A DNA stretch of 41,632 bases from a virus: IMG/VR virus record IMGVR_UViG_3300035698_014801, positions 1-41,632 of that record; one strand, given 5' to 3'. A program made the position numbers and the translations under genes. The notes beneath the pieces were generated by a model. That model saw only the letters and a list, made by a program, of their open reading frames with translations. It was not told where the DNA came from and searched no databases. Shown one piece after another: positions 6,847 through 37,379 of this stretch. Position 1 is the first letter of the stretch, and each line of letters opens with the position of its first letter.

Positions 6847-7359
6847 CTGGCATATGGTATGTCTGAATTTAAATTAGCTAACACTATGAATAGCTCTGTT
6901 GAAGAAGCTTTAAAGCTTATCACAGAGTATTTCCTAACGTTTCCTAAGATTAGTGGGTTACTTAATTATTTAGGAAAATACGGTCTTAAAAACGGCTATA
7001 TACAAACCTTTGGTCCTTATTTTAGAAGAAGATATTTTCAAAATTATAAAGATGCTGAAAGTGATTTCACTTTACGTGGTTCGATTGAACGCGCATCTAA
7101 AAATACGCCTATACAAGGCAGTTCTGCTGACATGACAAAGTTAGCAATGATACTCATTCGTAATGAAATACGACTCAACAAATGGCCTGTTAAAATGATT
7201 ATGACTGTACACGATCAAATTGATTGTATAGTACATAAAGATTATTCAATTAGCTGGGGCATTAGTATGCAACAATTAATGGAAGATGCTGCAAAAACCA
7301 TCTTACCAAGTGGTAGACTTAAAGCTGAAGTAACAATTTCTGATCGTTGGCAAAAATGA
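6847..7359 (+). CDS. polA: Family A DNA polymerase, 3' exon
   Basis: Last 170 residues of the polymerase. It begins with LAYGMSEFKLA, the second half of motif B, and has motif C MTVHDQID (His-Asp at about 595-596 of the spliced protein), where the second catalytic Asp sits. The sequence IERASKNTPIQGSSADMTKLAM between them is the conserved region of the palm seen in bacterial and phage Pol I enzymes. Without splicing, this exon lacks a natural start codon and the enzyme lacks its active site, so phage replication depends on intron removal. The TGA stop overlaps the ATG of the helicase gene. Confidence 0.95.
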   Translation: MAYGMSEFKLANTMNSSVEEALKLITEYFLTFPKISGLLNYLGKYGLKNGYIQTFGPYFRRRYFQNYKDAESDFTLRGSIERASKNTPIQGSSADMTKLAMILIRNEIRLNKWPVKMIMTVHDQIDCIVHKDYSISWGISMQQLMEDAAKTILPSGRLKAEVTISDRWQK

Positions 7360-24096: not shown

Positions 24097-24104
24097 TATA
24101 TTTA
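24097..24104 (+). promoter_or_regulatory. -7 box of tRNA operon A (TATATTTA)
   Basis: One mismatch to TAnnTTTG. It lies five bases before the leader ATG, the same arrangement as in front of leaders B, C and D, so the leader mRNA would have almost no 5' untranslated region. Confidence 0.5.
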
Positions 24105-24109
24105 CAGTC

Positions 24110-24178
24110 ATGAAAACTACAAGAAGTTATAGTCTCTTATCTTTATCGCTAAATTTAGTGAGGCTACGCTGTACATAA
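24110..24178 (+). CDS. Leader peptide A (Leu/Ser/Tyr-rich) of tRNA operon A
   Basis: A 22-codon ORF beginning Met-Lys, with the core SYSLLSLSLNL: six Leu (TTA three times, CTA twice, CTC once), four Ser and one Tyr (TAT). The tRNAs downstream are Leu-UAG (reads CTA), Leu-UAA (reads TTA), Ser-UGA (reads TCT and TCG) and Tyr-GUA (reads TAT); two of the Ser codons are AGT, which Ser-UGA does not read. It is followed by an intrinsic terminator, and codons 16-18 (TTA GTG AGG) contain the strand that can pair with the terminator. By analogy with leu and his operon leaders the ribosome should act as the sensor. Peptide itself probably has no function. Confidence 0.8.
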   Translation: MKTTRSYSLLSLSLNLVRLRCT

Positions 24179-24236
24179 TTTAAAAGTTAATTTAAAGTAC
24201 CAGACCCTCACTATTTAATTATAGTGAGGGTTTTTT
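24156..24236 (+). promoter_or_regulatory. Attenuator A: antiterminator and terminator
   Basis: Terminator: CCCTCACTAT (24205-24214), six-base loop, ATAGTGAGGG (24221-24230), six T. Antiterminator: TAGTGAGG at 24156-24163, inside the leader ORF, is complementary to the 5' arm of the terminator (8 bp), with GTAC/GTAC (24171-24174 with 24197-24200) extending it. The two structures exclude each other. Confidence 0.75.
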
Positions 24237-24241
24237 AATTT

Positions 24242-24322
24242 AGGAATGTGACATAAAAGCGAATGGCAGAGTAACTAGTCTTAGACACTAGAGTTTTACG
24301 GGTTCGAATCCCGTCATTCCTA
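24242..24322 (+). tRNA. tRNA-Leu (anticodon TAG)
   Basis: Acceptor AGGAATG/CATTCCT, anticodon stem CTAGT/ACTAG with loop CTTAGAC, T-arm ACGGG-TTCGAAT-CCCGT. The D region is enlarged and its stem weak, and the long variable arm expected of Leu tRNAs is missing, which is odd. Anticodon TAG reads CTA/CTN Leu codons, and CTA occurs twice in leader A. Confidence 0.75.
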
Positions 24323-24328
24323 CAATAA

Positions 24329-24413
24329 GCTTCAGTGGTGGAATTGGTAGACACGCGGGACTTAAAATCCCGTGACCATTGCGGTCGTGTGGGTTCGATT
24401 CCCACCTGAAGTA
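24329..24413 (+). tRNA. tRNA-Leu (anticodon TAA)
   Basis: Classical class II tRNA: acceptor GCTTCAG/CTGAAGT, anticodon stem CGGGA/TCCCG with loop CTTAAAA, long variable arm, T-arm GTGGG-TTCGATT-CCCAC. Reads TTA, the commonest Leu codon of leader A. Confidence 0.95.
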
Positions 24414-24418
24414 CTACT

Positions 24419-24500
24419 GGAAGAGGGCGCCCATGGGGGCAAGCAGATTTGAAATCTGTAGCAGTCGGTAACGACGAGGGTTCGATTCCTTTCTTTTCCG
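24419..24500 (+). tRNA. tRNA-Ser (anticodon TGA)
   Basis: Class II tRNA: acceptor GGAAGAG/CTTTTCC, anticodon stem GCAGA/TCTGT with loop TTTGAAA, long variable arm with a GTCG/CGAC stem, T-loop TTCGATT. Reads TCN serine codons. Confidence 0.93.
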
Positions 24501-24517
24501 CTAATTTAAAAAAAACA

Positions 24518-24907
24518 ATGAAAAAACAAAATAAAATTAGATTAAAAGTTCAGAAAAATATTGACAATACACCTTTTGAGGTTAGACAAAAATACTCTGA
24601 CGGTTATCATACATTTGAAGAATTGTATGAATTTAGAAAAGTTTATAATGCAGTACTTTTTAATGAATGGGCAAAGTTTGATATTCCTCTTTACAATGTA
24701 CATAAATCAATGAAGCATGCTAATGGTGAAGATTGTTTTAATGGCGGATGGTTTATTGTGGTAGCTGTTTTGCCAACAGGACAAATATCTAATCATTATG
24801 AATTAAAAGATTGGAATTTATTTAAAATTCCTGCAAAAGATAAAGCATTATTTGAATTTGATGGTCACAATTCTACTGATGTTTTAAACCGTTTAAATGC
24901 CTTATAA
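24518..24907 (+). CDS. Conserved phage protein of unknown function
   Basis: A 129-residue protein; the frame is open further upstream through the Ser tRNA, but the ATG at 24518 directly after the tRNA is the sensible start. The sequence includes YSDGYHTFEELYEFRKVYNA, GGWFIVVAVLPTGQISNHYE and KDWNLFKIP, a combination I have seen in short proteins of many unrelated phages, always without known function. It lies inside tRNA operon A, between Ser and Tyr tRNAs, and so would be controlled by leader A if there is no internal promoter. Confidence 0.85.
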   Translation: MKKQNKIRLKVQKNIDNTPFEVRQKYSDGYHTFEELYEFRKVYNAVLFNEWAKFDIPLYNVHKSMKHANGEDCFNGGWFIVVAVLPTGQISNHYELKDWNLFKIPAKDKALFEFDGHNSTDVLNRLNAL

Positions 24908-24924
24908 CAATTAAATTTAAAATA

Positions 24925-25167
24925 ATGATTATAATAGTTTTAGGAGTTTTTGTTTTATTAGTAATTTTAAATCAAAACATTGAAAATAAAAAAGAAGAAA
25001 AAGAAGAAGAAGAAGAAGAAGAGTATTTAGACCGCAATAAATATTTATTTAAAGAAGACGAAGAAGAAGAAGAAGATCAGATTTATCATCCAACAACTGG
25101 ATATAGAGGAACTAGAAGCGAGATGGATGCTTATATAATTAACAGAGAAAGACGGCAAAATGAGTAA
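24925..25167 (+). CDS. Single-span membrane protein with Glu-rich tail
   Basis: An 80-residue protein with an N-terminal membrane anchor (about residues 1-15, MIIIVLGVFVLLVIL) followed by a highly acidic region with runs of seven and six Glu/Asp (KEEEEEEEYL, KEDEEEEEDQ) and a polar C-terminus (YRGTRSEMDAYIINRERR). Topology should place the acidic part in the cytoplasm or periplasm depending on insertion; the lack of positive residues before the span suggests the tail is inside. It overlaps the next gene by eight bases. Function unknown. Confidence 0.65.
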   Translation: MIIIVLGVFVLLVILNQNIENKKEEKEEEEEEEYLDRNKYLFKEDEEEEEDQIYHPTTGYRGTRSEMDAYIINRERRQNE

Positions 25168-25510
25168 AAAAGAAGATTTATTTTTTAGAGTATCTAATGA
25201 TACCACAGAACAAGGATTATGGTACGATCGTAAAGGAAGTTTTACAGGCTTAATACACGATGAGTTTAATTTTTGTACTAACAATAAAATATTGATGCCT
25301 TTTAATGAACAAGCAGTAGGTTATTTATCAGCTGCAGACACTTTAGAAAAATTGTTTTATTGGTTTCCAATTGAAGATATAATAAAACTTCAAAAGTATG
25401 GCTATAGAGCGTCTGTGTACAAAGCAATGGATAAAAAATACAATAATCAATATAGACATTGGTTAATTAATGAGAAAACTTCTCTTTTTATAGGAGAGAT
25501 AAAGTTTTAA
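25160..25510 (+). CDS. Conserved small phage protein, unknown function
   Basis: A 116-residue soluble protein. Notable segments are QGLWYDRKGSFTGLIHDEFNFC, MPFNEQAVGYLSAADTLEKLFYWFP and KLQKYGYRASVY; this order of motifs recurs in small accessory proteins of Bacteroidota phages that I recall without a function. It overlaps the upstream membrane protein gene by eight bases and ends six bases before the Tyr tRNA. It probably belongs to the same transcript as tRNA operon A. Confidence 0.75.
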   Translation: MSKKEDLFFRVSNDTTEQGLWYDRKGSFTGLIHDEFNFCTNNKILMPFNEQAVGYLSAADTLEKLFYWFPIEDIIKLQKYGYRASVYKAMDKKYNNQYRHWLINEKTSLFIGEIKF

Positions 25511-25516
25511 TAAATT

Positions 25517-25597
25517 CCCTTAGTTGAGCAGGTGGTGAGCTCAGTAGATTGTAGATCTACCGTTAACGCCTTGTAGGTTCGATTCCTATCTGGGGGA
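25517..25597 (+). tRNA. tRNA-Tyr (anticodon GTA)
   Basis: Acceptor CCCTTAG/CTGGGGG, perfect D-stem GAGC/GCTC, anticodon stem GTAGA/TCTAC with loop TTGTAGA, an extra arm CGTTAACG as in bacterial Tyr tRNAs, T-arm GTAGG-TTCGATT-CCTAT. Tyr is the third amino acid represented in leader A (TAT codon). Confidence 0.95.
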
Positions 25598-25611
25598 CAA
25601 ACATGGAAACT

Positions 25612-25646
25612 GAACCTACAAGGCGTAGGACTCCCCTGCTAAGGGA
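25612..25646 (+). repeat. Abbreviated antisense copy of the Tyr tRNA
   Basis: Fifteen bases at 25612-25626 are the exact reverse complement of the variable/T-arm of the Tyr tRNA (25566-25580), and CTAAGGGA at 25639-25646 is the exact reverse complement of its 5' acceptor strand (25516-25523), with CCTG/CAGG matching in between. The order is that of an antisense tRNA with the D-loop and anticodon arm deleted. The transcript could fold back on the tRNA. Confidence 0.7.
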
Positions 25647-25753
25647 TGATGATCGGTTGGATTGGGCTTCGAGTGCTCCGGTTTCCGCTAATAGAACCTC
25701 TGGTCGAGAACGATTCGACATCTAGCGTTTTGCTAACGAAACACATTTATTTG
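25647..25753 (+). other. GC-richer intergenic stretch, possible structured RNA
   Basis: Clearly less AT-rich than its surroundings, with small hairpins such as GTCGA/TCGAC (about 25704-25720) and TAGC/GCTA. Group I core pairings like those of the polA intron are not recognisable. It may be the remnant of a mobile RNA linked to the HNH gene. Confidence 0.35.
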
Positions 25754-25761
25754 TATATTTG
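25754..25761 (+). promoter_or_regulatory. -7 box of the free-standing HNH gene
   Basis: TATATTTG with TTTG at 25729-25732, 21 bases upstream, close to the Bacteroidota -33/-7 arrangement; the HNH ATG follows 16 bases later. Confidence 0.6.
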
Positions 25762-25777
25762 TAAAAATGCTATTCAA

Positions 25778-26218
25778 ATGAACAAATGCCCAGAGTGTAA
25801 TGTAAAAACTAAAAATAAATTTTGTTCAAGAAGCTGTAGTGCCACTTACCATAACAAAAAAAATCCAAAACGCAAACCTAGTACAAAATGCAAAACTTGT
25901 TCTTGCCTTATAACTAATAGAAAAGTTTATTGTGTGATATGTTCAGAAAAAAGACTTTATAAAACAATAGAAGATCTTATGTACGTCAATCATCATAAAA
26001 GTAGTGCTTTTGCATGCATAAGACAAAGAGCTAGAACTGTAGCTAAAAATTTAGGATGGAAGTCTTGTGAAGTTTGTGGGTATGATACTCATATAGAAAT
26101 AGCTCATGTAAAATCAATTTCTTCTTTTACTAAAAATACTCTTATAAGTATAGTTAACGACAAGAGTAATTTAAGAGCTTTGTGCCCTAATCACCATTGG
26201 GAATTAGATAATATTTGA
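25778..26218 (+). CDS. Free-standing HNH endonuclease
   Basis: A 146-residue nuclease, starting at the ATG at 25778 (MNKCPECN); the frame is open upstream, but that part is not protein-like. Two zinc knuckles come first (CPEC...FCSRSC near 4-26; CKTCSC...CVIC near 44-66), then the HNH core: CEVCGYDTHIEIAHVKSI near 104-121 and LRALCPNHHWELDN at the end. Same type of enzyme as the intron-borne one in polA but diverged and without an evident intron around it. It sits at the convergence point of tRNA operons A and B, its stop touching the 3' end of the Arg tRNA, a common landing place for homing genes. Has its own promoter. Confidence 0.88.
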   Translation: MNKCPECNVKTKNKFCSRSCSATYHNKKNPKRKPSTKCKTCSCLITNRKVYCVICSEKRLYKTIEDLMYVNHHKSSAFACIRQRARTVAKNLGWKSCEVCGYDTHIEIAHVKSISSFTKNTLISIVNDKSNLRALCPNHHWELDNI

Positions 26219-26290
26219 ACCCGAAGAGAGACTCGAACTCTCATTGTATGGCTTAGAAAACCACTGCATTTCCAATTATGCTATTCAGGC
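26218..26290 (-). tRNA. tRNA-Arg (anticodon TCT)
   Basis: Acceptor GCCTGAA/TTCGGGT, anticodon stem GTGGT/GCCAT with loop TTTCTAA, T-arm GAGAG-TTCGAGT-CTCTC. Last tRNA of operon B. Reads AGA; the Arg codon in leader B is AGA. Confidence 0.92.
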
Positions 26291-26296
26291 ATTTTG

Positions 26297-26368
26297 AGGG
26301 CATGGTGGCATTTGAAGCCACTACTCCGGGTTACAAATCCGGTATTTTGCCGCGTAAACTACACGCCC
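26297..26368 (-). tRNA. tRNA-Thr (anticodon TGT)
   Basis: Acceptor GGGCGTG/CATGCCC, anticodon arm CCGGA-TTTGTAA-CCCGG (one mismatch next to the loop), T-arm GTGGC-TTCAAAT-GCCAC. Leader B contains three Thr codons. Confidence 0.9.
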
Positions 26369-26372
26369 ATTT

Positions 26373-26448
26373 GTGCCCCGCATGGGGATCGAACCCATAA
26401 CCTACCCGTTAAAAGCGGGGAGCTACTTCCTATTGAGCTTCCAAGGCA
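26373..26448 (-). tRNA. tRNA-Lys (anticodon TTT)
   Basis: Acceptor TGCCTTG/CGGGGCA, D-stem AGCT/AGCT, anticodon stem CCCG/CGGG with loop CTTTTAA, T-arm ATGGG-TTCGATC-CCCAT. Operon B; leader B contains AAG in its core. Confidence 0.88.
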
Positions 26449-26451
26449 TTA

Positions 26452-26481
26452 ATCCGGAAATTTCCGGATAGTTTCCGGATA
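26452..26481. repeat. Perfect 18-base palindrome plus repeat
   Basis: ATCCGGAAATTTCCGGAT is a perfect palindrome (26452-26469), and TTTCCGGATA is repeated at 26461-26470 and 26472-26481. It lies between the Gly and Lys tRNAs of operon B and could be an RNA-processing hairpin, a pause or terminator without T run, or a protein-binding site. Confidence 0.7.
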
Positions 26482-26484
26482 TAG

Positions 26485-26556
26485 TGCAGAATGTCAGATT
26501 CGAACTGCATCCCCTGTTTGGAAGACAGGTACTCTAGCCATTGAGCTACATTCTGC
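26485..26556 (-). tRNA. tRNA-Gly (anticodon TCC)
   Basis: Acceptor GCAGAAT/ATTCTGC, anticodon stem CCTGT/ACAGG with loop CTTCCAA, T-loop TTCGAAT. Operon B. Reads GGA, present in the leader core; the other Gly codons there are GGC. Confidence 0.95.
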
Positions 26557-26561
26557 ATTTG

Positions 26562-26636
26562 CGCACCCTAAAGGATTTGAACCTTTGACACCTGGTTTTG
26601 GAGACCAGTGCTCTGACCAGACTGAGCTAAAGATGC
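26562..26636 (-). tRNA. tRNA-Trp (anticodon CCA)
   Basis: Acceptor GCATCTT/AGGGTGC, anticodon stem CTGGT/ACCAG with loop CTCCAAA, T-arm AAAGG-TTCAAAT-CCTTT. Operon B; leader B contains one Trp codon, an otherwise rare residue. Confidence 0.95.
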
Positions 26637-26641
26637 ATTTA

Positions 26642-26716
26642 GAGGAATTTATTGGTTTCGAACCAATCTCTCGTGAGCTTCAATCACGCGCTTTCACCAG
26701 ATTAGCTTAAATTCCT
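26642..26716 (-). tRNA. tRNA-Phe (anticodon GAA)
   Basis: Acceptor AGGAATT/AATTCCT, anticodon stem CGTGA/TCACG with loop TTGAAGC, T-arm TTGGT/ACCAA type with TTCGAA loop. Operon B. Confidence 0.93.
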
Positions 26717-26720
26717 ATTT

Positions 26721-26793
26721 GAGATGCTAACTAGAATCGAACTAGTGTTGGAAGTTTTGCAGACTTCTGCCTAGCCACTCGGCCATAACACCT
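26721..26793 (-). tRNA. tRNA-Cys (anticodon GCA)
   Basis: Acceptor AGGTGTT/AGCATCT, anticodon stem GAAGT/ACTTC with loop CTGCAAA, T-arm CTAGT-TTCGATT type. First tRNA of operon B, right after the attenuator; Cys is also the most frequent residue of leader B (five). Confidence 0.93.
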
Positions 26794-26800
26794 TATAAAC

Positions 26801-26834
26801 AAAAAACCCCTAACATTACTGTCAAGGGCTTTTC
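26801..26834 (-). terminator. Attenuator B terminator
   Basis: On the minus strand: AAAAGCCCTTGACA, tetraloop GTAA, TGTTAGGGGTTTTTT. About 14 bp with several G-U pairs and a T run; it ends seven bases before the Cys tRNA. Leader bases TGTAAGGG (minus strand of 26897-26904, codons for Cys-Lys-Gly) can pair with CCCTTGACA of its 5' arm (8 bp with one bulge), giving an alternative antiterminator. Confidence 0.75.
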
Positions 26835-26862
26835 ACGGTCGGGGAGTAAAAAATATATAATT

Positions 26863-26946
26863 TTACACTTTCAAACATAAAGAGCCAAAGACGCATCCCT
26901 TACAGGTCCATCTACAAAAGCCACAGTTTGTCGTGTTGTTTTTCAT
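26863..26946 (-). CDS. Leader peptide B (Cys/Gly/Phe/Trp/Arg/Thr/Lys) of tRNA operon B
   Basis: A 27-codon ORF beginning Met-Lys. The core CGFCRWTCKGC consists only of Cys, Gly, Phe, Arg, Trp, Thr and Lys, exactly the seven amino acids served by the seven tRNAs of operon B. Codons are TGT GGC TTT TGT AGA TGG ACC TGT AAG GGA TGC; AGA matches the Arg-UCU tRNA and TGG the Trp tRNA. A later part has more Cys, Phe and Gly. Starvation for any one charged tRNA would stall the ribosome within this stretch, upstream of the terminator. A zinc-finger-like reading of the Cys residues is possible but a 27-residue product before a terminator fits a leader better. Confidence 0.8.
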   Translation of the reverse strand: MKNNTTNCGFCRWTCKGCVFGSLCLKV

Positions 26947-26950
26947 AGGA

Positions 26951-26958
26951 CAAATATA
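26951..26958 (-). promoter_or_regulatory. -7 box of tRNA operon B (TATATTTG)
   Basis: Exact match to TAnnTTTG on the minus strand, four bases before the leader ATG; ATTG, close to the -33 TTTG element, lies 19 bases further upstream. Confidence 0.7.
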
Positions 26959-26984
26959 CTTTAATTTTTAACACAAACAATAAA

Positions 26985-27071
26985 ATGGACGAAAAACTTT
27001 ATTATACAATTGAATCTGATCCAGGAGATGAAGATACCTCTATTAATGTTCAAAACGAATCCGATGATTAA
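26985..27071 (+). CDS. Tiny acidic ORF (28 residues)
   Basis: Starts divergently from the operon B promoter and overlaps the next gene as ATGATTAA. The product is rich in Asp, Glu and Ser (ESDPGDEDTSINVQNESDD). The overlap pattern is the same as between real genes here, which supports translation, but the ORF is short and could be a coupling leader for the next gene. Confidence 0.45.
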   Translation: MDEKLYYTIESDPGDEDTSINVQNESDD

Positions 27072-27306
27072 CAATAAAAAACGAAGCATATTATATTATA
27101 CTTTACCTCCAATAGTAATTCCTTTTTTAATTTATATTATAGGAGCTACTTCTATGTGGTTTGTAGAAATGCGTGAAGCTTATAATTACTATGATATAAC
27201 ATGCTGGCACGCAGCTTTAAGAGCATTTTATATTTTATTTTGTATTTGCTGTACAGGTATGTTTTATTCTTGGATAAATCAAAACAACGATAACAATGAA
27301 GGGTAA
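27064..27306 (+). CDS. Small two-span membrane protein
   Basis: An 80-residue protein, with the start taken at 27064 (MINNKKRS) because the upstream part of the frame overlaps the preceding ORF and is not protein-like. Two membrane spans: LPPIVIPFLIYIIGATSMWF and AFYILFCICCTGMFYSW, with a basic N-terminus and a short acidic C-terminus, so both ends are probably cytoplasmic. It overlaps the next small gene. No family recognised. Confidence 0.65.
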   Translation: MINNKKRSILYYTLPPIVIPFLIYIIGATSMWFVEMREAYNYYDITCWHAALRAFYILFCICCTGMFYSWINQNNDNNEG

Positions 27307-27412
27307 AAAAGTAGAATTAGCAGAGATACCTGTAGAGTGGGTTAATAAAGTTTTTGTAATTTTGGATAATGATGGAAGTCAAATTGCTTCCGGAATAATA
27401 AAACCTTTATGA
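27296..27412 (+). CDS. Small 38-residue protein
   Basis: An ORF linked to both neighbours: it starts inside the end of the membrane protein gene and ends on an ATGA overlap with the next gene. The product (VELAEIPVEWVNKVFVILDNDG and GIIKPL) looks like a small beta-rich domain. Real gene status rests on the double overlap. Function unknown. Confidence 0.5.
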   Translation: MKGKKVELAEIPVEWVNKVFVILDNDGSQIASGIIKPL

Positions 27413-27852
27413 CACAACAATCTTCAGGAACTTTAAATGAACAATTTTTAGTTAAATACTCCAATCCTAGTCACACTTTTCGACACGAAGAAGGAGGTGT
27501 AATAGGGTATAAACTTGTAGTAAACAAGGTTGAAAACTTTTATTCGATTGGTACCGGTATGTATAGATATAAGACAGGAATAGTTGCTCGTAGAGAGAAT
27601 GATTATTCTGTTCTATACGAAGGAACTGATTGTTTTGAATCAAAAATGAAAAACCGTGTAGCTGTCTTCCTCACTGTTCAGGATTTGTTTCTCACATTTC
27701 CTTTTGTTCAATACGAAGATCAATATTACACAATAGTTGAAATAGAACTTGGAGGAGATTTAATTATGTTTGACATGGAAAATAAACATAATAATACCTG
27801 TGTTTTAGCAGGAACTTATATTAAAAGTATAAAAGAATCAAATTTAAATTAA
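27409..27852 (+). CDS. Unknown 147-residue protein
   Basis: Beta-rich soluble protein without recognised family. It starts on an ATGA overlap and contains short strand-like segments (YKLVVNKVENFYSIG, YRYKTGIVARRENDYSVLYEG, YYTIVEIELGGDLIMFD). No cysteine cluster, signal peptide or membrane span. It is followed by another unknown gene after seven bases, and then by the leader of tRNA operon C. Confidence 0.7.
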   Translation: MTQQSSGTLNEQFLVKYSNPSHTFRHEEGGVIGYKLVVNKVENFYSIGTGMYRYKTGIVARRENDYSVLYEGTDCFESKMKNRVAVFLTVQDLFLTFPFVQYEDQYYTIVEIELGGDLIMFDMENKHNNTCVLAGTYIKSIKESNLN

Positions 27853-27859
27853 TAATGAT

Positions 27860-28309
27860 ATGAGTAAAAGACAAATCTATGTAGGAACAAAAAAAGTATA
27901 CCCTACAGCAATGACAAGAGCAGAGTATTATTTAAAACTAGAACTTAGAGTTCCTTTAAATGAAGATGCAACAGAAAAAGGATACATGGTTGAATATTTA
28001 GAAGGAGGTAAACCAAATACTTCTTTTTCTAATATGTATGTTTCTTGGTCACCAAAAGATGTTTTCGATAAGTCTTATTTTGTAGAAAAAGATAAAAAAA
28101 CAGCCGAAATTCTTTTAAGATTAAATTTAGAACTTAAAGAATTAGTTTCTAAATATGATGCTCTTACACTTTTTTTAGACTCTCCTCAAGCCACTACTAT
28201 ACCTAGTGTACAACTTAAACTTCTTACAATACAAGAACCTGTTATGAGTGCTTATATATCTATTTTACAACTTCGTATTGAATTAATTGAAAAAAGTGAA
28301 AATAGTTAA
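27860..28309 (+). CDS. Conserved phage protein of unknown function
   Basis: A 149-residue protein. The N-terminal half (VPLNEDATEKGYMVEYLEGGKPN...YVSWSPKDVF) carries the motif 'GY-EY-GG-PN...SWSPK-VF' that I have seen in small proteins of many tailed phages, usually annotated as hypothetical. The C-terminal half is helical (LELKELVSKYDALTLFLDSP, LLTIQEPVMSAYISILQLRI) and looks like a coiled helical hairpin added to that domain. It is the last gene before the promoter of tRNA operon C. Confidence 0.8.
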   Translation: MSKRQIYVGTKKVYPTAMTRAEYYLKLELRVPLNEDATEKGYMVEYLEGGKPNTSFSNMYVSWSPKDVFDKSYFVEKDKKTAEILLRLNLELKELVSKYDALTLFLDSPQATTIPSVQLKLLTIQEPVMSAYISILQLRIELIEKSENS

Positions 28310-28320
28310 AATAATTTATG

Positions 28321-28328
28321 TATGTTTG
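28321..28328 (+). promoter_or_regulatory. -7 box of tRNA operon C (TATGTTTG)
   Basis: Exact match to TAnnTTTG, eight bases before the leader ATG. No clear TTTG at -33. Confidence 0.6.
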
Positions 28329-28336
28329 CAGTGCAA

Positions 28337-28405
28337 ATGAAAACAATTATAAATATCGACATGATTAATGTAGCGGATAATATCCGACAGGAACTCTATG
28401 TTTAA
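28337..28405 (+). CDS. Leader peptide C (Ile/Asn/Asp/Met/Val/Ala) of tRNA operon C
   Basis: A 22-codon ORF beginning Met-Lys. The core IINIDMINVADNI consists only of Ile, Asn, Asp, Met, Val and Ala, precisely the six amino acids of the seven tRNAs downstream. Codons include ATT, ATA and ATC, AAT, GAC and GAT, ATG, GTA, GCG; the single ATA would suit the lysidine-modified CAT tRNA if one of the two CAT tRNAs is Ile2. The last codons (CAG GAA CTC) form one strand of the antiterminator, so a ribosome that reaches the stop covers it, while one stalled in the core leaves it free. Confidence 0.85.
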   Translation: MKTIINIDMINVADNIRQELYV

Positions 28406-28457
28406 TATTTAATTAGAATTAAACGAGTCCCTGTTAGAAATAGCAGGGACTTTTTTT
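28388..28457 (+). promoter_or_regulatory. Attenuator C: antiterminator and terminator
   Basis: Terminator: AGTCCCTGTTA, GAAA tetraloop, TAGCAGGGACT (28426-28451), seven T. Antiterminator: CAGGAACTC (28388-28396) pairs with GAGTCCCTG (28425-28433), 8 of 9, and GTTTAAT (28400-28406) pairs with ATTAAAC (28418-28424), 7 of 7. The second arm of the antiterminator contains the first arm of the terminator, so only one can form. This is the clearest of the four attenuators. Confidence 0.85.
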
Positions 28458-28464
28458 ATAATAT

Positions 28465-28537
28465 AGCGTGATGGTGATGATGGAAACATATTAGGCTCAT
28501 AACCTTAAGGACGAGGGTTCGAATCCCTCTCACGCCA
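28465..28537 (+). tRNA. tRNA with anticodon CAT (Met, initiator Met or Ile2)
   Basis: Acceptor AGCGTGA/TCACGCC with an A1-C72 mismatch, anticodon stem TTAGG/CCTTA (one mismatch) with loop CTCATAA, T-arm GAGGG-TTCGAAT-CCCTC. An unpaired 1-72 is typical of initiators, but the three G-C pairs of the initiator anticodon stem are absent; Ile2 (reading ATA) is equally possible. First tRNA of operon C. Confidence 0.85.
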
Positions 28538-28539
28538 CT

Positions 28540-28557
28540 AAGTCCACAAGGGGACTT
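28540..28557 (+). other. Small hairpin between tRNAs
   Basis: AAGTCC/GGACTT with a six-base loop just after the CAT tRNA. Probably a processing or stabilising hairpin; weak as a terminator. Confidence 0.5.
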
Positions 28558-28615
28558 TAATTACCTTACGCACTTTTAAAGTTAAAGTCATATAGCCGAA
28601 AGGAAAACTTTACAT

Positions 28616-28688
28616 GGGACTATAGTTCAGACGGCTAGAACAGGAGGCTTGCACCTTTCAGACCTGGGTTCGATTCCTAGTAGCTCCA
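28616..28688 (+). tRNA. tRNA-Ala (anticodon TGC)
   Basis: Acceptor GGGACTA/TAGCTCC (one A-C mismatch), anticodon stem GGAGG/CTTTC with loop CTTGCAC, T-arm CTGGG-TTCGATT-CCTAG. Leader C has one Ala codon, GCG. Confidence 0.88.
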
Positions 28689-28701
28689 CAAATTTTAAAT
28701 T

Positions 28702-28833
28702 ATGAGAGAAAAAGATATTGTTAAAAAAGAGGTTTTAGGTAAAGGTAAGCCCATGATCAATGTTAAAGCCCATGTCGCTACTAAAGAAGAAATAATTAAG
28801 TATAGGCGTAAACAATACAAATATCTTTTCTAA
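28702..28833 (+). CDS. Small basic protein in tRNA operon C
   Basis: A 43-residue Lys-rich ORF between the Ala and Ile tRNAs. The sequence (VKKEVLGKGKPMINVKAHVA and EEIIKYRRKQYKYLF) could form a small nucleic-acid-binding or ribosome-associated fold. No family recognised. Small basic genes of this kind often lie between phage tRNA genes. Confidence 0.5.
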   Translation: MREKDIVKKEVLGKGKPMINVKAHVATKEEIIKYRRKQYKYLF

Positions 28834-28851
28834 GTGTAAAAAAGTAAATAA

Positions 28852-28925
28852 TGTTGAATAGCTCAGTCCGGCAGAGCAGTTCCCTGATAAGGAAAAGGTC
28901 GTAGGTTCAAATCCTGCTTCAACAA
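28852..28925 (+). tRNA. tRNA-Ile (anticodon GAT)
   Basis: Acceptor TGTTGAA/TTCAACA, D-stem GCTC/GAGC, anticodon stem TTCC/GGAA with loop CTGATAA, T-arm GTAGG-TTCAAAT-CCTGC. Ile is the main residue of leader C (five). Confidence 0.93.
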
Positions 28926-28931
28926 CAACAT

Positions 28932-29005
28932 ACTTTCTTAGCTCAGTTTGGTAGAGCAGCTGTTTTACATGCAGTTAGTCCTTGGTTCAAATCCAAGAGA
29001 AAGTA
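28932..29005 (+). tRNA. tRNA-Val (anticodon TAC)
   Basis: Acceptor ACTTTCT/AGAAAGT, D-stem GCTC/GAGC, anticodon stem GCTGT/GCAGT with loop TTTACAT, T-arm CTTGG-TTCAAAT-CCAAG. The Val codon in the leader core is GTA, its exact cognate. Confidence 0.94.
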
Positions 29006-29018
29006 CTAAAGTTTAATT

Positions 29019-29228
29019 ATGTCTAGGAGTAGAAAAAAAGTATCTTATTTTGGAGATAAAGCTCGTAAAAAAGATAAACGGGAAGCATCAAAAGCAGTAA
29101 GAAGATATAAAGAAAATATCCCTAAAGGTAAATGGTTTAGAAAAATATTTGATAGCTGGAACATTAAAGATTTTTATTTTTTAATGGATAAAACTGATAA
29201 ATATTACAAAAAAGGATTGAGAAAATGA
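29019..29228 (+). CDS. Small highly basic protein
   Basis: A 69-residue protein, about one third Lys or Arg, starting MSRSRKK and containing KARKKDKREASKAVRRYK. Proteins starting in this way occur near tRNA genes in many phages and are uncharacterised; an RNA- or DNA-binding role is likely from charge. The C-terminus (IFDSWNIKDFYFLMDK) may form a small folded part. It lies between the Val and Met tRNAs of operon C. Confidence 0.7.
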   Translation: MSRSRKKVSYFGDKARKKDKREASKAVRRYKENIPKGKWFRKIFDSWNIKDFYFLMDKTDKYYKKGLRK

Positions 29229-29272
29229 GGTTTCGTGGGCGAGTTGTACCTAGTAAAACAGCCGGCCTATCA

Positions 29273-29346
29273 GTGCTCTTGGCGCAGTTTGGTAGCGCAG
29301 CTTGCTCATAACAAGAAGGTCATAGGTTCAAATCCTGTAGGGCGCA
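29273..29346 (+). tRNA. tRNA-Met (anticodon CAT)
   Basis: Acceptor GTGCTCT/AGGGCGC, D-stem GCGC/GCGC, anticodon stem CTTG/CAAG with loop CTCATAA, T-arm ATAGG-TTCAAAT-CCTGT. The other CAT tRNA is at 28465; one of the pair may be Ile2 or initiator. Confidence 0.9.
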
Positions 29347-29364
29347 CTAATTTAAATAACAAAT

Positions 29365-29532
29365 ATGTCAGGAGGAAAACCATTTTGGATTGAAGTAGAA
29401 ACAAGAAGTCCTAACGATACAAGAAATAACCCAGCTAAAGGAGGTGTAAAATCTCCAAGTTCTATTTCTTTTTCAGGTAAAAAAGCTACTTATGTAGGAA
29501 AAACTAATTTATCTATTATAAAAAAAGGATAA
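29365..29532 (+). CDS. Small 55-residue protein in tRNA operon C
   Basis: Begins MSGGKPFWIEVETRSPND and continues with a Lys/Ser-rich stretch and a beta-like end (ATYVGKTNLSIIKKG). No family recognised; it is short but has a clean start after the Met tRNA and no competing frame, and ends ten bases before the Asn tRNA. Probably translated from the same transcript as the tRNAs. Confidence 0.5.
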   Translation: MSGGKPFWIEVETRSPNDTRNNPAKGGVKSPSSISFSGKKATYVGKTNLSIIKKG

Positions 29533-29541
29533 ATTTTAAAT

Positions 29542-29613
29542 TGACAAGTAGCTCAGAGGAAGAGCAGGTGTTTGTTAAACATCAGGCCGGGATATCGTAA
29601 TTCCCCTTGTCAG
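29542..29613 (+). tRNA. tRNA-Asn (anticodon GTT)
   Basis: Acceptor TGACAAG/CTTGTCA, D-stem GCTC/GAGC, anticodon stem GGTGT/ACATC with loop TTGTTAA. The T-arm is unusual (GGGAT...ATTCCC, without the standard TTCRA loop). Asn occurs three times in leader C (AAT). Confidence 0.88.
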
Positions 29614-29619
29614 CAAAAT

Positions 29620-29691
29620 AGTCTATTGGTCCAATGGTTAGGATAGTGCGTTGTCTGCGCGAAGGTGAGGGTTTGATTCCCTCATAGACTG
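29620..29691 (+). tRNA. tRNA-Asp (anticodon GTC)
   Basis: Acceptor AGTCTAT/ATAGACT, anticodon loop TTGTCTG closed by GTGCG/CGCGA, T-arm TGAGG-GTTTGATT-CCCTC. Last tRNA of operon C, converging with operon D eight bases later. Confidence 0.9.
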
Positions 29692-29698
29692 CTATTTG

Positions 29699-29770
29699 AA
29701 CTTTTGGGGAGAGTCGAACTCCCATCTCAACATCCGTAGTGATGTGTTCTTCCAATTGAACTACAAAAGT
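29699..29770 (-). tRNA. tRNA-Arg (anticodon ACG)
   Basis: Acceptor ACTTTTG/CAAAAGT, D-stem GTTC/GAAC, anticodon stem CATCA/TGTTG (one mismatch) with loop CTACGGA, T-arm GGGAG-TTCGACT-CTCCC. Last tRNA of operon D. With A34 edited to inosine it reads CGT and CGC; the Arg codon in the leader D core is CGC. Confidence 0.88.
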
Positions 29771-29774
29771 AATT

Positions 29775-29848
29775 GGTGATATCTGAGACTCGAACTCAGT
29801 ACTGGAAAACCACAATTTCCTGTTTTAACCACATAAACTAATACCAAC
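29775..29848 (-). tRNA. tRNA-His (anticodon GTG)
   Basis: Anticodon stem GGAAA/TTTCC with loop TTGTGGT, T-arm CTGAG-TTCGAGT-CTCAG, and the extra G(-1) opposite C73 expected of His tRNAs. Operon D; leader D has CAT ACA CAT. Confidence 0.92.
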
Positions 29849-29858
29849 TTTTTAATTG

Positions 29859-29930
29859 ATGCTCCAACTAGATTCGAACTAGTATTCTAGGCTTCAAAGG
29901 CCTTTGTCCTGCCAATTAGACGATAGAGCA
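29859..29930 (-). tRNA. tRNA-Gln (anticodon TTG)
   Basis: Acceptor TGCTCTA/TGGAGCA, anticodon stem AGGC/GCCT with loop CTTTGAA, T-arm CTAGT-TTCGAAT-CTAGT type. Operon D; leader D contains CAA and CAG. Confidence 0.92.
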
Positions 29931-29936
29931 TTATTG

Positions 29937-30008
29937 TCACCTATGAGAGAATCGAACTCTCGTTTCCGACGTGAAAAACCGGCGTCCTGGCCGTTAGACG
30001 AATAGGCA
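29937..30008 (-). tRNA. tRNA-Glu (anticodon TTC)
   Basis: Acceptor TGCCTAT/ATAGGTG, anticodon stem CCGGT/GTCGG with loop TTTTCAC, T-arm GAGAG-TTCGATT-CTCTC. Operon D; leader D contains GAA twice. Confidence 0.92.
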
Positions 30009-30015
30009 AAATAGT

Positions 30016-30084
30016 ACGGGGCATGAGAATCGAACTCACCGCATCCTGCTCCCAAAGCAGACCTGACACCTTGCCACTACCCCA
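30016..30084 (-). tRNA. tRNA-Pro (anticodon TGG)
   Basis: Acceptor TGGGGTA/TGCCCCG, anticodon stem TCTGC/GCAGG with loop TTTGGGA, T-arm GTGAG-TTCGATT-CTCAT. First tRNA of operon D, directly after the terminator T run; leader D contains one Pro codon, CCG. Confidence 0.92.
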
Positions 30085-30116
30085 TAAAAAAATCCCTATA
30101 ATTTCTTATAGGGATT
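30085..30116 (-). terminator. Attenuator D terminator
   Basis: On the minus strand AATCCCTATA, six-base loop, TATAGGGATT, then a T run; perfect 10-bp stem that ends right at the Pro tRNA. An antiterminator is less clear than in A-C: GGGAT in the leader can pair with ATCCC of the 5' arm (5 bp), with GGATA/TATCT nearby. Confidence 0.75.
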
Positions 30117-30147
30117 AATAGATATTCAAGAAAACAAAAAAAAAGTT

Positions 30148-30222
30148 TTATTTAAATAACATACGTATCCCATTACAGCTTTCCGGCTGTTCAATGCGAT
30201 GTGTATGTTGAATCATTTTCAT
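30148..30222 (-). CDS. Leader peptide D (Gln/His/Arg/Glu/Pro) of tRNA operon D
   Basis: A 24-codon ORF beginning Met-Lys. The core QHTHRIEQPE has Gln twice, His twice, Arg, Glu twice and Pro, i.e. all five amino acids of the operon D tRNAs in 8 of 10 positions; Thr and Ile are the only others. Codons are CAA CAT ACA CAT CGC ATT GAA CAG CCG GAA. The region can also fold: AACATAC/GTATGTT encloses an inner ACAGC/GCTGT hairpin, a possible pause or 1:2-type hairpin. The box TATATTTG lies four bases before the ATG and the terminator 32 bases after the stop. Confidence 0.78.
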   Translation of the reverse strand: MKMIQHTHRIEQPESCNGIRMLFK

Positions 30223-30226
30223 ACAC

Positions 30227-30234
30227 CAAATATA
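30227..30234 (-). promoter_or_regulatory. -7 box of tRNA operon D (TATATTTG)
   Basis: Exact TAnnTTTG on the minus strand, four bases before the leader D start and nine bases from the divergent thyX start, so the promoter reaches into thyX. Confidence 0.68.
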
Positions 30235-34683: not shown

Positions 34684-35472
34684 ATGATAAAATTAACAGT
34701 AGAAGGGAAACAGGTTTCTATGGAAGCCTTTTCTTTTCCTTCTGGTGAACGACAAGTTCGAATAGGAAATATTAGAACATATGATATTGCATTAGTAGAA
34801 GTAAACACATATGATCCTACTACAATGTTTGACTTAATGCTTTTAGTAGAAATACTAGATAGACATAAAGTTAAATCTAGAGTATTAGTATTAGGATATT
34901 TTCCAGCGGGAAGACAAGATAGAGTAACTGGGGAAAATGAAAGTTTTGCTTTAAAAGTATACTCCTCTTTCATTAATAATTTAAACTTTACGAATGTTGT
35001 TATTACAAATCCTCATTCAGATGTTACACCGGCATTAATAAATAATGTTATTATAAATACTGGAAACACTTTTTTTAGAAACCGTATAAAAATTATAGCT
35101 AAAGGCTGGAAAACTATAAATCTTATTGCTCCTGATGCAGGTGCATCTAAGAAAACAGAAAATTTAGCTAAATTTTTATCATATGATTTCAATGTAAACG
35201 TTGTTCAATGTTTAAAACGTAGAGATCTAAAGACTGGTAAATTAGAAGGATTCAGGATTGTATCTCCTGTGTTAGATATTAAATCTCCAATGATTATGGT
35301 AGATGATATATGTGATGGTGGCGGTACTTTTTTAGGATTAGCTGAAGAGTTTAAAGACATATCTTGTCGCAATATTCACTTAATAGTTACTCACGGCTTT
35401 TATTCAAAAGGAAAAGATAAACTATCTGACACTTTTAAAACTGTGAGTGAAGAATTCAATTACAATGATTAA
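34684..35472 (+). CDS. prs: Ribose-phosphate pyrophosphokinase (PRPP synthetase)
   Basis: A 262-residue PRPP synthetase, shorter than bacterial Prs (about 310). FPAGRQDRVTGENESF near 76-91 corresponds to the ATP-binding flexible loop (PYARQDR), LIAPDAGASKK near 148-158 to the ribose-5-phosphate loop region, and MVDDICDGGGTF near 202-213 to the PRPP-binding loop. It makes PRPP from ribose 5-phosphate and ATP. With the nicotinamide phosphoribosyltransferase one gene downstream, which consumes PRPP, it forms a salvage route to NMN. Overlaps the next gene as ATGATTAA. Confidence 0.92.
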   Translation: MIKLTVEGKQVSMEAFSFPSGERQVRIGNIRTYDIALVEVNTYDPTTMFDLMLLVEILDRHKVKSRVLVLGYFPAGRQDRVTGENESFALKVYSSFINNLNFTNVVITNPHSDVTPALINNVIINTGNTFFRNRIKIIAKGWKTINLIAPDAGASKKTENLAKFLSYDFNVNVVQCLKRRDLKTGKLEGFRIVSPVLDIKSPMIMVDDICDGGGTFLGLAEEFKDISCRNIHLIVTHGFYSKGKDKLSDTFKTVSEEFNYND

Positions 35473-35752
35473 CGGAATAGCAGTAAAAAGATCTATCCCA
35501 ATAAAATGGTTTACATGGAAGGATAAAATAGAAGATCTTGAAGAATGGTGTAAACTTTTAAATGTTGAATTAAAAAATAATTTTGAATTTAAAGACAACA
35601 TTTTAAAAGTATATACTTTAGAAGGACATTCTTATCCTATTCCTGAAGGATACATTATTATACAAGGGTCTGCTGGAGAGTTTTATCCTCACGAGCCAGA
35701 ATTATTTGAAGGAAACTACATAAAACAAAAAGAATTTAAAAAAAAACAATAG
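35465..35752 (+). CDS. Small phage protein with GEFYP motif
   Basis: A 95-residue protein, starting at 35465 on the ATGATTAA overlap with prs (the frame is open slightly further upstream). The C-terminal half, SYPIPEGYIIIQGSAGEFYPHEPELFEGNY, is a domain I recall from many phage proteins of the form '[24 protein letters not shown]', of unknown function. The N-terminal half (WFTWKDKIEDLEEWCKLLN) fits the helix normally preceding it. It lies between prs and the nicotinamide phosphoribosyltransferase gene and ends with TAG, with a TGA eight codons further on. Confidence 0.8.
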   Translation: MINGIAVKRSIPIKWFTWKDKIEDLEEWCKLLNVELKNNFEFKDNILKVYTLEGHSYPIPEGYIIIQGSAGEFYPHEPELFEGNYIKQKEFKKKQ

Positions 35753-35753
35753 T

Positions 35754-37379
35754 ATGAATCCAGGATTAGCAACTGATGGATATAAAACAAGCCATCCCGC
35801 AATGTACCCAAAAGGTACAAATTTAGTAATGACTAATCTTACTGCACGTAGTGGTAAGCATGCAAACTTGCATGGATATAAAAGTAAAGGAGTACTTGCA
35901 GTAGGAGCTCCTTATGCTATTCAAAAAGTACATAACTTATTTGAGCCTTTTTTTAAAGAAAACAAAAATAGAGCATGTACTTATATTAAATCAGTATATT
36001 CTTTATACTTAGGAACACAATATGATCCTAGACTTTTCGAAGAATTACATGATTTAGGTTTTTTACCTATTGAAGTTCGTACTTTACCAGAAGGTTCTTT
36101 TGTAAAATATGGTGTACCGTTCTATACAATACACAATACAATTGACAAATTCTTTTGGTTAACTAACTTTTTAGAAACCATAATATCTTGTTACACGTGG
36201 CCTTTAATTACTGCAGCTACTACAGCCGCACATTATAGAAAACTTGTAGAGAGTAACTTGGAGGAAACTGATCCAGAATCAATGGGTGCTGCGGACTATT
36301 TATGTCATGATTTCTCAATGAGAGGTTTAATGGGATTAGATGCAGCTGAAATGATTGGCTTAGGACATTTATTTTCTTTTGTTGGTAGTGATACGTTACC
36401 TGCTATTCATGCAGCAATAACTTATTACGATGCCGGTAAAGAGAATTACGATTTCTCAGGAATATCTGCAGGAGTACCAGCTTCAGAGCATGCAGTAATG
36501 TGTGCAGGAGAAAAAGAATCAGAGATTGAGACTTTCAAACGTCTTATGAAAGTGTATCCTAAAGGAATATTATCTGTTGTATCTGATACCTGGGATTTAT
36601 GGAAAGTTCTTACTGAGTATTTACCTCAATTGAAGGATGTAATTATGCTTCGTGATGGTAAATTAGTAATACGTCCGGATTCAGGTGATCCTGTTGATAT
36701 TATTTGTGGATTAGATAATAATGTTTTTGATAGCCATTTAGAAGCTGAAAAATATTATAAAGTACATGGATTAAAAAACGTAAAGTATTACGTAAACGAT
36801 TCATTGTATGTTGTTATAAAGCACATAGGAAATCATTACAAGTACGCTAAATTAGAAGAAATTTCTGCAGATAAAGGAGTAATAGAACTTCTTTGGGATA
36901 TATTTGGTGGTACTGTAAACAAGCAAGGATTCAAAGTATTAGATCCTCATATTGGATCAATCTATGGCGATTCTATTACTTTAGATGTAGCTGAGCAAAT
37001 GTACACTCGTTTAAAAGCTAAAGGATTTGCCACTTCCAATGTTGTTTTGGGGATTGGTTCTTTCACATATCAGTATGTAACCAGAGATACTCACGGAATG
37101 GCTTTCAAAGCTACTTATGTTGAGATAAATGGTGTAGGTAGAGATATCTTTAAAGAACCCGTTACTGATGATGGCACCAAAAAGTCAGCTAAAGGACCTA
37201 TTAAAGTTTGTTGGGATTCTGAAGAAGGAGAATTTTATCTTAAGAAAGATATTAAATTTGCTGAAATTAGAAGTGCAGACAATGCTTTAAAAATAATTTA
37301 CCGTAATGGTATTTGGATTAAACGTCCAACATTAAAAGAAGTTCGTAAAAGAGTTAAAACTCAATTACGTTATTTATAA
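35754..37379 (+). CDS. nadV: Nicotinamide phosphoribosyltransferase
   Basis: A 541-residue NadV/NAMPT enzyme joining nicotinamide and PRPP to NMN, the first step of NAD salvage. Recognisable blocks: ATDGYKTSHPAMYPKGTN at the N-terminus, FSMRGLMGLDAAEMIGLGHL near 184 and GSDTLPA near 204, GVPASEHAVMCAG near 231 with the catalytic His, SVVSDTWDLWKVL near 268, and IRPDSGDPV near 303, which binds the phosphoribosyl group. Some phages use this enzyme with an NMN adenylyltransferase to rebuild NAD after NAD-depleting defences; no adenylyltransferase is in this window. Confidence 0.95.
   Translation: MNPGLATDGYKTSHPAMYPKGTNLVMTNLTARSGKHANLHGYKSKGVLAVGAPYAIQKVHNLFEPFFKENKNRACTYIKSVYSLYLGTQYDPRLFEELHDLGFLPIEVRTLPEGSFVKYGVPFYTIHNTIDKFFWLTNFLETIISCYTWPLITAATTAAHYRKLVESNLEETDPESMGAADYLCHDFSMRGLMGLDAAEMIGLGHLFSFVGSDTLPAIHAAITYYDAGKENYDFSGISAGVPASEHAVMCAGEKESEIETFKRLMKVYPKGILSVVSDTWDLWKVLTEYLPQLKDVIMLRDGKLVIRPDSGDPVDIICGLDNNVFDSHLEAEKYYKVHGLKNVKYYVNDSLYVVIKHIGNHYKYAKLEEISADKGVIELLWDIFGGTVNKQGFKVLDPHIGSIYGDSITLDVAEQMYTRLKAKGFATSNVVLGIGSFTYQYVTRDTHGMAFKATYVEINGVGRDIFKEPVTDDGTKKSAKGPIKVCWDSEEGEFYLKKDIKFAEIRSADNALKIIYRNGIWIKRPTLKEVRKRVKTQLRYL

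Follow-up and report, generated by a model that had tools for sequence, protein, structure and literature searches.

Leader peptides matched to their own tRNA sets and candidate attenuators ahead of phage tRNA operons

The window analysed here, a stretch of 41,632 nucleotides of viral DNA, contains four tRNA operons (A to D), and comparative sequence evidence makes it highly probable that each is under ribosome-mediated transcription attenuation sensing the supply of its own tRNAs. Ribosome-mediated attenuation is a known mechanism. Its use where the regulated product is the tRNA itself, in sets spanning several amino acids, is apparently new, no earlier description of leader-attenuated tRNA operons having been found in the literature searched. 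In the proposed mechanism, whose sign and dynamics we infer, RNA polymerase would begin a little ahead of a short leader ORF. When the cognate charged tRNAs are all plentiful, the ribosome would reach the stop codon and cover segment 1, made up of the final few codons of the leader; a terminator would then form some 23 nt beyond, and transcription would end before the tRNAs. Should any tRNA of the set be scarce, the ribosome would stall at its codon in the core of the leader (codons -9 to -19), leaving segment 1 free to pair with the 5' arm of the terminator; the terminator would not form and the whole set would be transcribed. An operon with an untranslated leader is also predicted to be ON. 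The model assumes transcription-translation coupling in Bacteroidota and predicts that readthrough would rise as cognate charged tRNA becomes limiting.

ARAGORN identified 21 tRNAs within 24329-30008. A Leu-TAG tRNA (24242-24322; Rfam tRNA score 29.5 bits) was added by eye, as was a Pro-TGG tRNA (30085-30011), which has no accepted Rfam hit and a weak sub-threshold tRNA-type match alone. Operon A (24242-25598, plus strand) encodes Leu(TAG), Leu(TAA) and Ser(TGA), followed by three ORFs and Tyr(GTA); the last sits 1 kb past tRNA-Ser and is probably a member of the operon. Operon B (26217-26792, minus strand) encodes Cys, Phe, Trp, Gly, Lys, Thr and Arg(TCT), and operon C (28465-29692, plus strand) Met/Ile(CAT), Ala, Ile, Val, Met(CAT), Asn and Asp, with small ORFs between them. 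Operon D (29698-30085, minus strand) comprises Pro(TGG), Glu, Gln, His and Arg(ACG). Taken together, the four operons leave none of the 20 amino acids without a tRNA.

Every operon is preceded by a short leader ORF and, as originally predicted, every leader by a promoter -7 box, TAnnTTTN, located 4-8 nt ahead of the ATG in 4/4 cases. Read in the sequence, these boxes are TATATTTA, of the Bacteroidota type TAnnTTTG, in operon A (24097-24104, plus strand), TATATTTG in both operon B (26951-26958, minus strand) and operon D (30227-30234, minus strand), and TATGTTTG in operon C (28321-28328, plus strand). The leaders were expected to span 22-27 codons and do so: leader A, MKTTRSYSLLSLSLNLVRLRCT, has 22 codons and core residues S, Y and L (24110-24178, plus strand); leader B, MKNNTTNCGFCRWTCKGCVFGSLCLKV, has 27 codons with a core of C, G, F, R, W, T and K (26863-26946, minus strand); leader C, MKTIINIDMINVADNIRQELYV, has 22 codons with a core of I, N, D, M, V and A (28337-28405, plus strand); and leader D, MKMIQHTHRIEQPESCNGIRMLFK, has 24 codons with a core of Q, H, R, E and P (30148-30222, minus strand). 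Each amino acid served by an operon was said to be present in its own leader, and coverage is indeed 1.0 in all four operons. The further statement that the cores contain almost nothing else holds well for leaders B and C, and less so for leader D, which also contains T, I, S, C and N. Altogether 51/83 leader residues match their own tRNA set; among the 24 ways in which leaders and operons can be paired, no other does better (runner-up 36). This permutation rests on four pairs and its p value has a floor of 1/24, a limit which, taken with the window alone, would leave room for AT-rich short ORFs before tRNA genes sharing residues by accident; it is relatives that decide.

Viral contigs were scanned without regard to leader composition, giving at least 81 representative leader/operon pairs at below 50% identity; the retrieval patterns required ATGAAA and a T tract, and the pair counts are those among the matches listed rather than a prevalence. 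The permutation of leaders and operons in other phages, put forward with the original prediction as a check, bears it out: their leaders, too, are conserved ORFs, with a residue match of 0.47 for the own set against 0.24 permuted in the 81 combined representatives (z 17.3), and of 0.488 against 0.249 in the 70 viral representatives (z 16.2). In the latter set, a leader contains 95% of the amino acids of its own operon compared with 61% when permuted (z 11.3). Leaving out the window's own pairs gives z 15.5, and a small hold-out of 11 new representatives gives z 4.6, with 0/50,000 permutations as good. Representatives share ancestry within operon types; taking one pair for each of the 28 tRNA-set types, which lessens the effect of kinship and does not remove it, gives z 11.1. 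The match is confined to the true reading frame, frames +1 and +2 giving z -0.5 and -1.0, and this frame specificity suggests that the leaders are translated. It is also confined to codons -9 to -19, where it reaches 0.77 against about 0.25, and is absent at codons -1 to -6 in the 70 viral representatives.

In operons A-D the gap between the end of the intrinsic terminator (-12.8 to -19.1 kcal) and the first tRNA is 5-8 nt, in keeping with the expected position of the terminators just before it. The decisive part of the arrangement, which had not been foreseen, is the pairing of the leader 3' end with the terminator arm. By prediction the leader 3' end can pair with the terminator 5' arm, which would make each unit a three-segment attenuator; the energies given for terminators and antiterminators are thermodynamic and not co-transcriptional. 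In operon A, segment 1, the antiterminator strand TTAGTGAGGC (24155-24164, plus strand), is predicted to pair with 24205-24214 at -12.4 kcal, and the terminator, segments 2 and 3, lies at 24202-24233 (plus strand; -19.1 kcal) and is followed by a T tract. In operon B, duplex folding places segment 1 at 26876-26893 (minus strand), CGTCTTTGGCTCTTTATG, pairing with 26836-26820 at -12.3 kcal; the assignment is ambiguous, a by-eye alternative, TGTAAGGGA, lying farther upstream within the core. The terminator of this operon occupies 26799-26836 (minus strand; -18.9 kcal). Segment 1 of operon C, ATCCGACAGGAACTCT (28382-28397, plus strand), is predicted to pair with 28424-28438 at -14.8 kcal; the terminator lies at 28421-28456 (plus strand; -18.9 kcal). 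Operon D has the weakest predicted pairing of the four, at -7.8 kcal, between segment 1, GCTGTAATGGGATA (30166-30179, minus strand), and 30116-30104 in the terminator (30091-30116, minus strand; -12.8 kcal); its own terminator arm is not special as a partner, ranking 23/54.

Across phages the complementarity is pronounced. Pairing between the last 11 leader codons and the terminator arm of the same operon has an energy of -12.1 kcal, compared with -7.3 kcal when permuted (z -17.4; z -18.4 in the combined set of 81), whilst the core, the ORF start and the spacer have no excess pairing with that arm (z -0.7, 0.5 and 0.1). A stall model places the excess antiterminator energy near -5 kcal with the ribosome at codons -12 to -18; it drops to about -0.6 kcal at codon -7 and is nil at the stop codon, parallel to the residue match. 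Both are lost over codons -11 to -7, the stretch in which the antiterminator would start to be masked by a stalled ribosome. In this model the position of the control codons leaves the antiterminator free during a stall and masked once the ribosome is at the stop codon. Growth-coupled tRNA synthesis is common among bacteria, and a reverse logic in which complete leader translation favours readthrough, the tRNAs being made when translation is good, would accord with it. The geometry makes this very improbable, since the terminator, which starts a median of 23 nt past the leader stop codon and a median of 8 nt before the first tRNA, is out of reach of a terminating ribosome, and such a ribosome would cover segment 1, favouring termination.

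Leader codons fit the encoded isoacceptor for Leu (p 6e-4) and Arg (p 0.004), whilst those for Ser have no isoacceptor preference (p 1). The attenuation originally proposed for the tRNA operons draws support, at the level of sequence, from permutation, frame controls, hold-out, complementarity, stall geometry and isoacceptor codons. Accidental resemblance, with z values of 16-17 over 70-81 dereplicated pairs, specific in frame and position, retains next to no probability and is refuted by the residue match, the antiterminator complementarity, the stall geometry and the hold-out and isoacceptor tests.

The proposed switch resembles the trp, his, leu, phe and ilv attenuators in its short leader ORF, its control codons, its competing antiterminator and terminator, and a stall that leads to readthrough. 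It differs in that tRNA is regulated rather than enzymes, that a single leader would respond to several amino acids at once, up to seven or more, that it resides in phage genomes, and that it has three segments, with no separate protector hairpin evident. In Flavobacterium psychrophilum, leader-peptide attenuation is reported ahead of operons for amino-acid biosynthesis and not of tRNA operons (PMC9723704); the phylum that hosts the named examples thus already uses the mechanism, which makes it plausible in Bacteroidota. That precedent, and the response of classical leaders to charged tRNA, would also suit a sensor of amino-acid starvation as in trp and his attenuation, with tRNA genes merely another downstream product. 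We regard this as unlikely, because lack of an amino acid is not relieved by extra tRNA, because the Leu and Arg codons track the encoded isoacceptor beyond the amino acid alone, and because the leaders combine up to seven unrelated amino acids matching the tRNA set. T-box riboswitches likewise couple charged-tRNA supply to termination, but T-box RNA binds uncharged tRNA directly, whereas in the phage system a translated ORF would do the sensing. No Rfam T-box hit was obtained at the gathering threshold or at E<=1, and a T-box was rejected on this basis.

The arrangement is found in Cellulophaga phages phi17:2 and phi38:1, in a 642-kb phage and in a few Bacteroidota chromosomes. In phi17:2, the leader MKIQRLHLQELEQPIISGGTGV precedes tRNAs Pro-Glu-Gln-His-Leu-Leu-Arg, and a second, beginning MKTNYCTYNNSNWSFSYDTGSV, precedes Tyr-Ser-Asn-Trp-Phe. 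Five tRNAs of the controlled operon in one Mucilaginibacter chromosome are duplicates, having separate, divergent copies as well, and the operon may thus serve hosts as a backup. Chromosomal matches outside Bacteroidota from the genome-pattern scan were rejected, their leaders failing to match by eye. crAss001, with 23 tRNAs, is without such leaders, and four tRNA-rich loci from protein searches (L108 and L150-L152) have no matching leader and terminator; the leaders are thus not general to phage tRNA arrays. Single-protein searches with the RNR, the ThyX-like protein and a 1349-aa protein yielded no close kin bearing tRNAs. Alignment did bring up a relative (L157), its RNR 79% identical, on a contig terminating at TATATTTGACCCTATGAAAACAC, an apparent leader start.

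The switch may pay off by making good the tRNAs that tRNA-cleaving defences of the host destroy or that heavy codon demand uses up. The attenuator alone cannot separate tRNA cleavage from amino-acid starvation or heavy codon demand. Phage tRNAs have been described as countering tRNA-cleaving defences (PMC10264068, PMC11555353, PMC12409363), and the sets described here could similarly replace cleaved host tRNAs, with the difference that each has its own sensor; these papers mention neither leaders nor attenuation. It is attractive to consider, at about even probability on the sequence evidence, that the tRNA sets form an inducible, isoacceptor-resolved counter-defence, each monitoring itself through its leader and turning ON when immunity destroys any member. 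Somewhat less probable is ordinary supply matching by the same attenuator, in which phage mRNA drains tRNAs and the operons replenish them, with no host defence involved. Attenuation senses any slow codon, and the sets of the window span all 20 amino acids, wider than any single nuclease target. A VVVV leader ahead of a gene for a class I tRNA synthetase of the valyl type, observed in a 508-kb phage, fits control of charging or supply. Constitutive tRNA expression would however suffice for such matching, and is apparently used by other phages such as the leaderless crAss001, whilst independently sensed sets better suit selective loss.

For more than 50 years there has been no clear reason why phages should carry tRNAs (PMC10264068). 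A set-by-set sensor of tRNA supply would tell which signal the phage tRNAs answer and would offer a reporter for that signal; the presence of the switch in cultured Cellulophaga phages opens it to bench testing. The reach of leader-peptide attenuation would grow to take in tRNAs besides enzymes, and mixed sets besides single amino acids. If the counter-defence reading is true, phage tRNA operons would both sense immunity directed at tRNAs and remedy its effects.

Four tRNA operons, A (+), B (-), C (+) and D (-), lie at 24.2-30.1 kb of the window (an entire IMG/VR viral record, 41,632 bases), as delineated with ARAGORN and Rfam. ARAGORN missed two further tRNAs, which were identified by eye: Leu-TAG at 24242, which reaches the Rfam cut-off, and Pro-TGG at 30085-30011, which falls below it. 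With these included, the operons jointly cover all 20 amino acids. The architecture originally predicted is present in all four: a TAnnTTTN -7 box precedes a Met-Lys ORF of 22-27 codons, followed by a predicted intrinsic terminator ending 5-8 nt upstream of the first tRNA. The proposed correspondence between leader and operon also holds, as every tRNA amino acid of each operon occurs in its own leader, and 51 of the 83 leader residues belong to the own set, the top score of the 24 possible leader/operon pairings in the window (runner-up 36). A window-wide scan for short Met-Lys ORFs followed by a terminator picked up just leaders A, B and D; leader C escaped it, since its ATG lies within a longer ORF, and was recovered in a later leader extraction. 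The non-coding stretches at 25599-25760 (after tRNA-Tyr) and 28540-28615 (between tRNA-Met and tRNA-Ala) gave no Rfam match.

Other features of the window lie outside these operons. A tRNA with anticodon CUA at 2808-2879, called Pyl by ARAGORN, may be an amber suppressor, and tRNA-like fragments lie close upstream of it (2540-2760); TAG ends only 5 of the 40 ORFs counted, and readthrough would append short tails only. An isolated tRNA-Ile call (anticodon AAU, 842-916) has no operon-type leader and no Rfam tRNA match at the gathering threshold. The DNA polymerase A gene (4862-7359) is split in two by an ORF of HNH-like appearance at 6302-6814, for which no Pfam match was obtained, and Rfam detected no group I intron there at E<=1. 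PRPP synthetase-like and nicotinamide/nicotinate phosphoribosyltransferase genes are found near each other at 34684-37379, a pair known from phage NAD+ rebuilding pathways.

Protein searches yielded only distant or fragmentary kin. The contig of the closest relative, L157, breaks off precisely at a -7 box with ATGAAAACAC, a leader-like ORF start, after it (15990-16044). Relatives were collected from viral contigs with a composition-blind pattern (ATGAAA, gap, T run, tRNA motif), leaders being ATGAAA/G ORFs of 12-42 codons with a terminator 5-50 nt past the stop and a tRNA within 150 nt. Among the matches listed, the first extraction gave 121 pairs, reduced to 77 representatives (<50% leader identity), of which 70 are viral. 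The match persists in these phages, judged against leaders permuted among operons: in the 70 viral representatives, a fraction of 0.488 of leader residues falls within the own tRNA set versus 0.249 permuted (z 16.2), and leaders contain 95% of their own set's amino acids versus 61% (z 11.3). It survives removal of the window (z 15.5) and reduction to one pair for each of 28 tRNA-set types (z 11.1), and is gone in frames +1 and +2 of the same DNA (z -0.5 and -1.0). A hold-out of 11 further representatives, added later among the matches listed when that collection was scanned again by pattern, and so of independent sequence but shared source, gave z 4.6, with 0 of 50,000 permutations as good; the combined 81 representatives give z 17.3. 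Striking single cases are MKTNFVQQQQQQQTLNKGSGIAMS before tRNA Gln, MKTIITTSSSSSSRSSNLREVLLCS before Arg-Ser and MKNNSTHSYQSPWCICTRIGV before Tyr-Pro-Trp-Cys-His-Ser-Thr-Glu. Counting back from the stop, only codons -9 to -19 show the match, with a maximum of 0.77 versus about 0.25, and it is lacking at codons -1 to -6.

Classical attenuators need a third element, and in operons A-D the predicted complementarity of the leader ORF 3' end to the terminator 5' arm would supply one, a part absent from the original prediction. In operon A, for example, TTAGTGAGGC of the leader is predicted to pair with CCCTCACTAT of the terminator. Predicted pairing energies are -12.4 (A), -12.3 (B), -14.8 (C) and -7.8 kcal (D), and the antiterminator is evident in A and C, more doubtful in B and weak in D. 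Across the representatives, only the last 11 codons are complementary to the own terminator arm (-12.1 versus -7.3 kcal permuted, z -17.4), with no such signal in the core, ORF start or spacer (z -0.7, 0.5 and 0.1). Median distances are 23 nt from stop to terminator and 8 nt from terminator to first tRNA. Stalling was modelled with the ribosome leading edge 10 nt past the A-site codon, a value we assume from E. coli ribosomes. A modelled stall at codons -12 to -18 leaves an excess antiterminator energy of about -5 kcal, which falls to -3.7, -2.5, -1.4 and -0.6 at codons -10, -9, -8 and -7 and vanishes at the stop. Over these codons the residue match drops as well.

Sensing of the amino acid rather than the tRNA was weighed using core codons of operons encoding one box only of a six-codon amino acid. 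Codons track the encoded tRNA for Leu (TTR/CTN table [[20,3],[7,13]], p 6e-4) and Arg (AGR/CGN table [[4,1],[0,10]], p 0.004), and show no fit for Ser ([[9,17],[19,34]], p 1). For Leu and Arg, codon usage thus speaks for sensing of the tRNA rather than of the amino acid, with no such support from Ser.

Such leaders also occur in named phages and in bacteria. Cellulophaga phage phi17:2 (NC_021798) has one at 87518-87586, before Pro, Glu, Gln, His, Leu, Leu and Arg, and another at 90037-90135, before Tyr, Ser, Asn, Trp and Phe. Those of phi38:1 (NC_021796) lie at 35283-35360, overlapping an annotated ORF (hypothetical gp066), and at 36744-36833. In LR756502, a 642-kb uncultured phage, MKTMNLNMNLNTLTVVNN... 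precedes Asn, Leu, Val, Ile and Thr tRNAs. The switch is not universal among tRNA-rich phages, since a similar scan found no such leaders in crAss001 (23 tRNAs), nor were any found in four other tRNA-rich loci. A Mucilaginibacter locus with ordinary chromosomal neighbours (L499, 4238-4782) carries MKTTTILCFIPQLIYQRG before Pro, Ile, Phe, Cys and Gln, and all five tRNAs also occur in its genome as separate, divergent copies. Similar leaders are present in two other Mucilaginibacter genomes and one further genome of the same family, and in Arsenicibacter rosenii MKTLCTYCLYSCSLL... precedes Cys and Leu. Among the matches listed, the pattern occurs in only 7 of 151 genomes of Mucilaginibacter's family, two of which (G071 and G195) have leaders clear by eye. 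In a 508-kb phage contig (L361, 8396-8546), MKHINSNNVVVVNRNPVC is followed after 22 nt by a predicted terminator and lies upstream of a class I aminoacyl-tRNA synthetase gene, probably of valyl type judging from its N-terminal PPPNITG motif and class I Pfam match; this appears to be the same kind of switch placed on a synthetase gene.

Leader-peptide attenuation has been reported at amino-acid operons of Flavobacterium psychrophilum (PMC9723704). A search of a library with few subscription papers found no account of leader peptides or attenuation at tRNA operons of phages, and neither 'leader' nor 'attenuat' matched in three papers that treat phage tRNAs together with tRNA-cleaving defence or in a recent computational survey of tRNA genes in phages; novelty is accordingly a matter of 'not found' rather than proven. 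The parts observed here, their statistical coupling and their geometry point to a mechanism in which the leader would be translated and a ribosome stalled on it would permit readthrough of a working terminator into the tRNAs. As to the physiological trigger, which we infer to be shortage of the operon's own tRNAs, an attenuator cannot tell cleaved from uncharged tRNA. Because extra tRNA helps only where tRNA is cleaved or codon demand is heavy, the preferred benefit is replacement of lost or overdrawn tRNA, and the chances that the operons serve against a nuclease in particular are about even.
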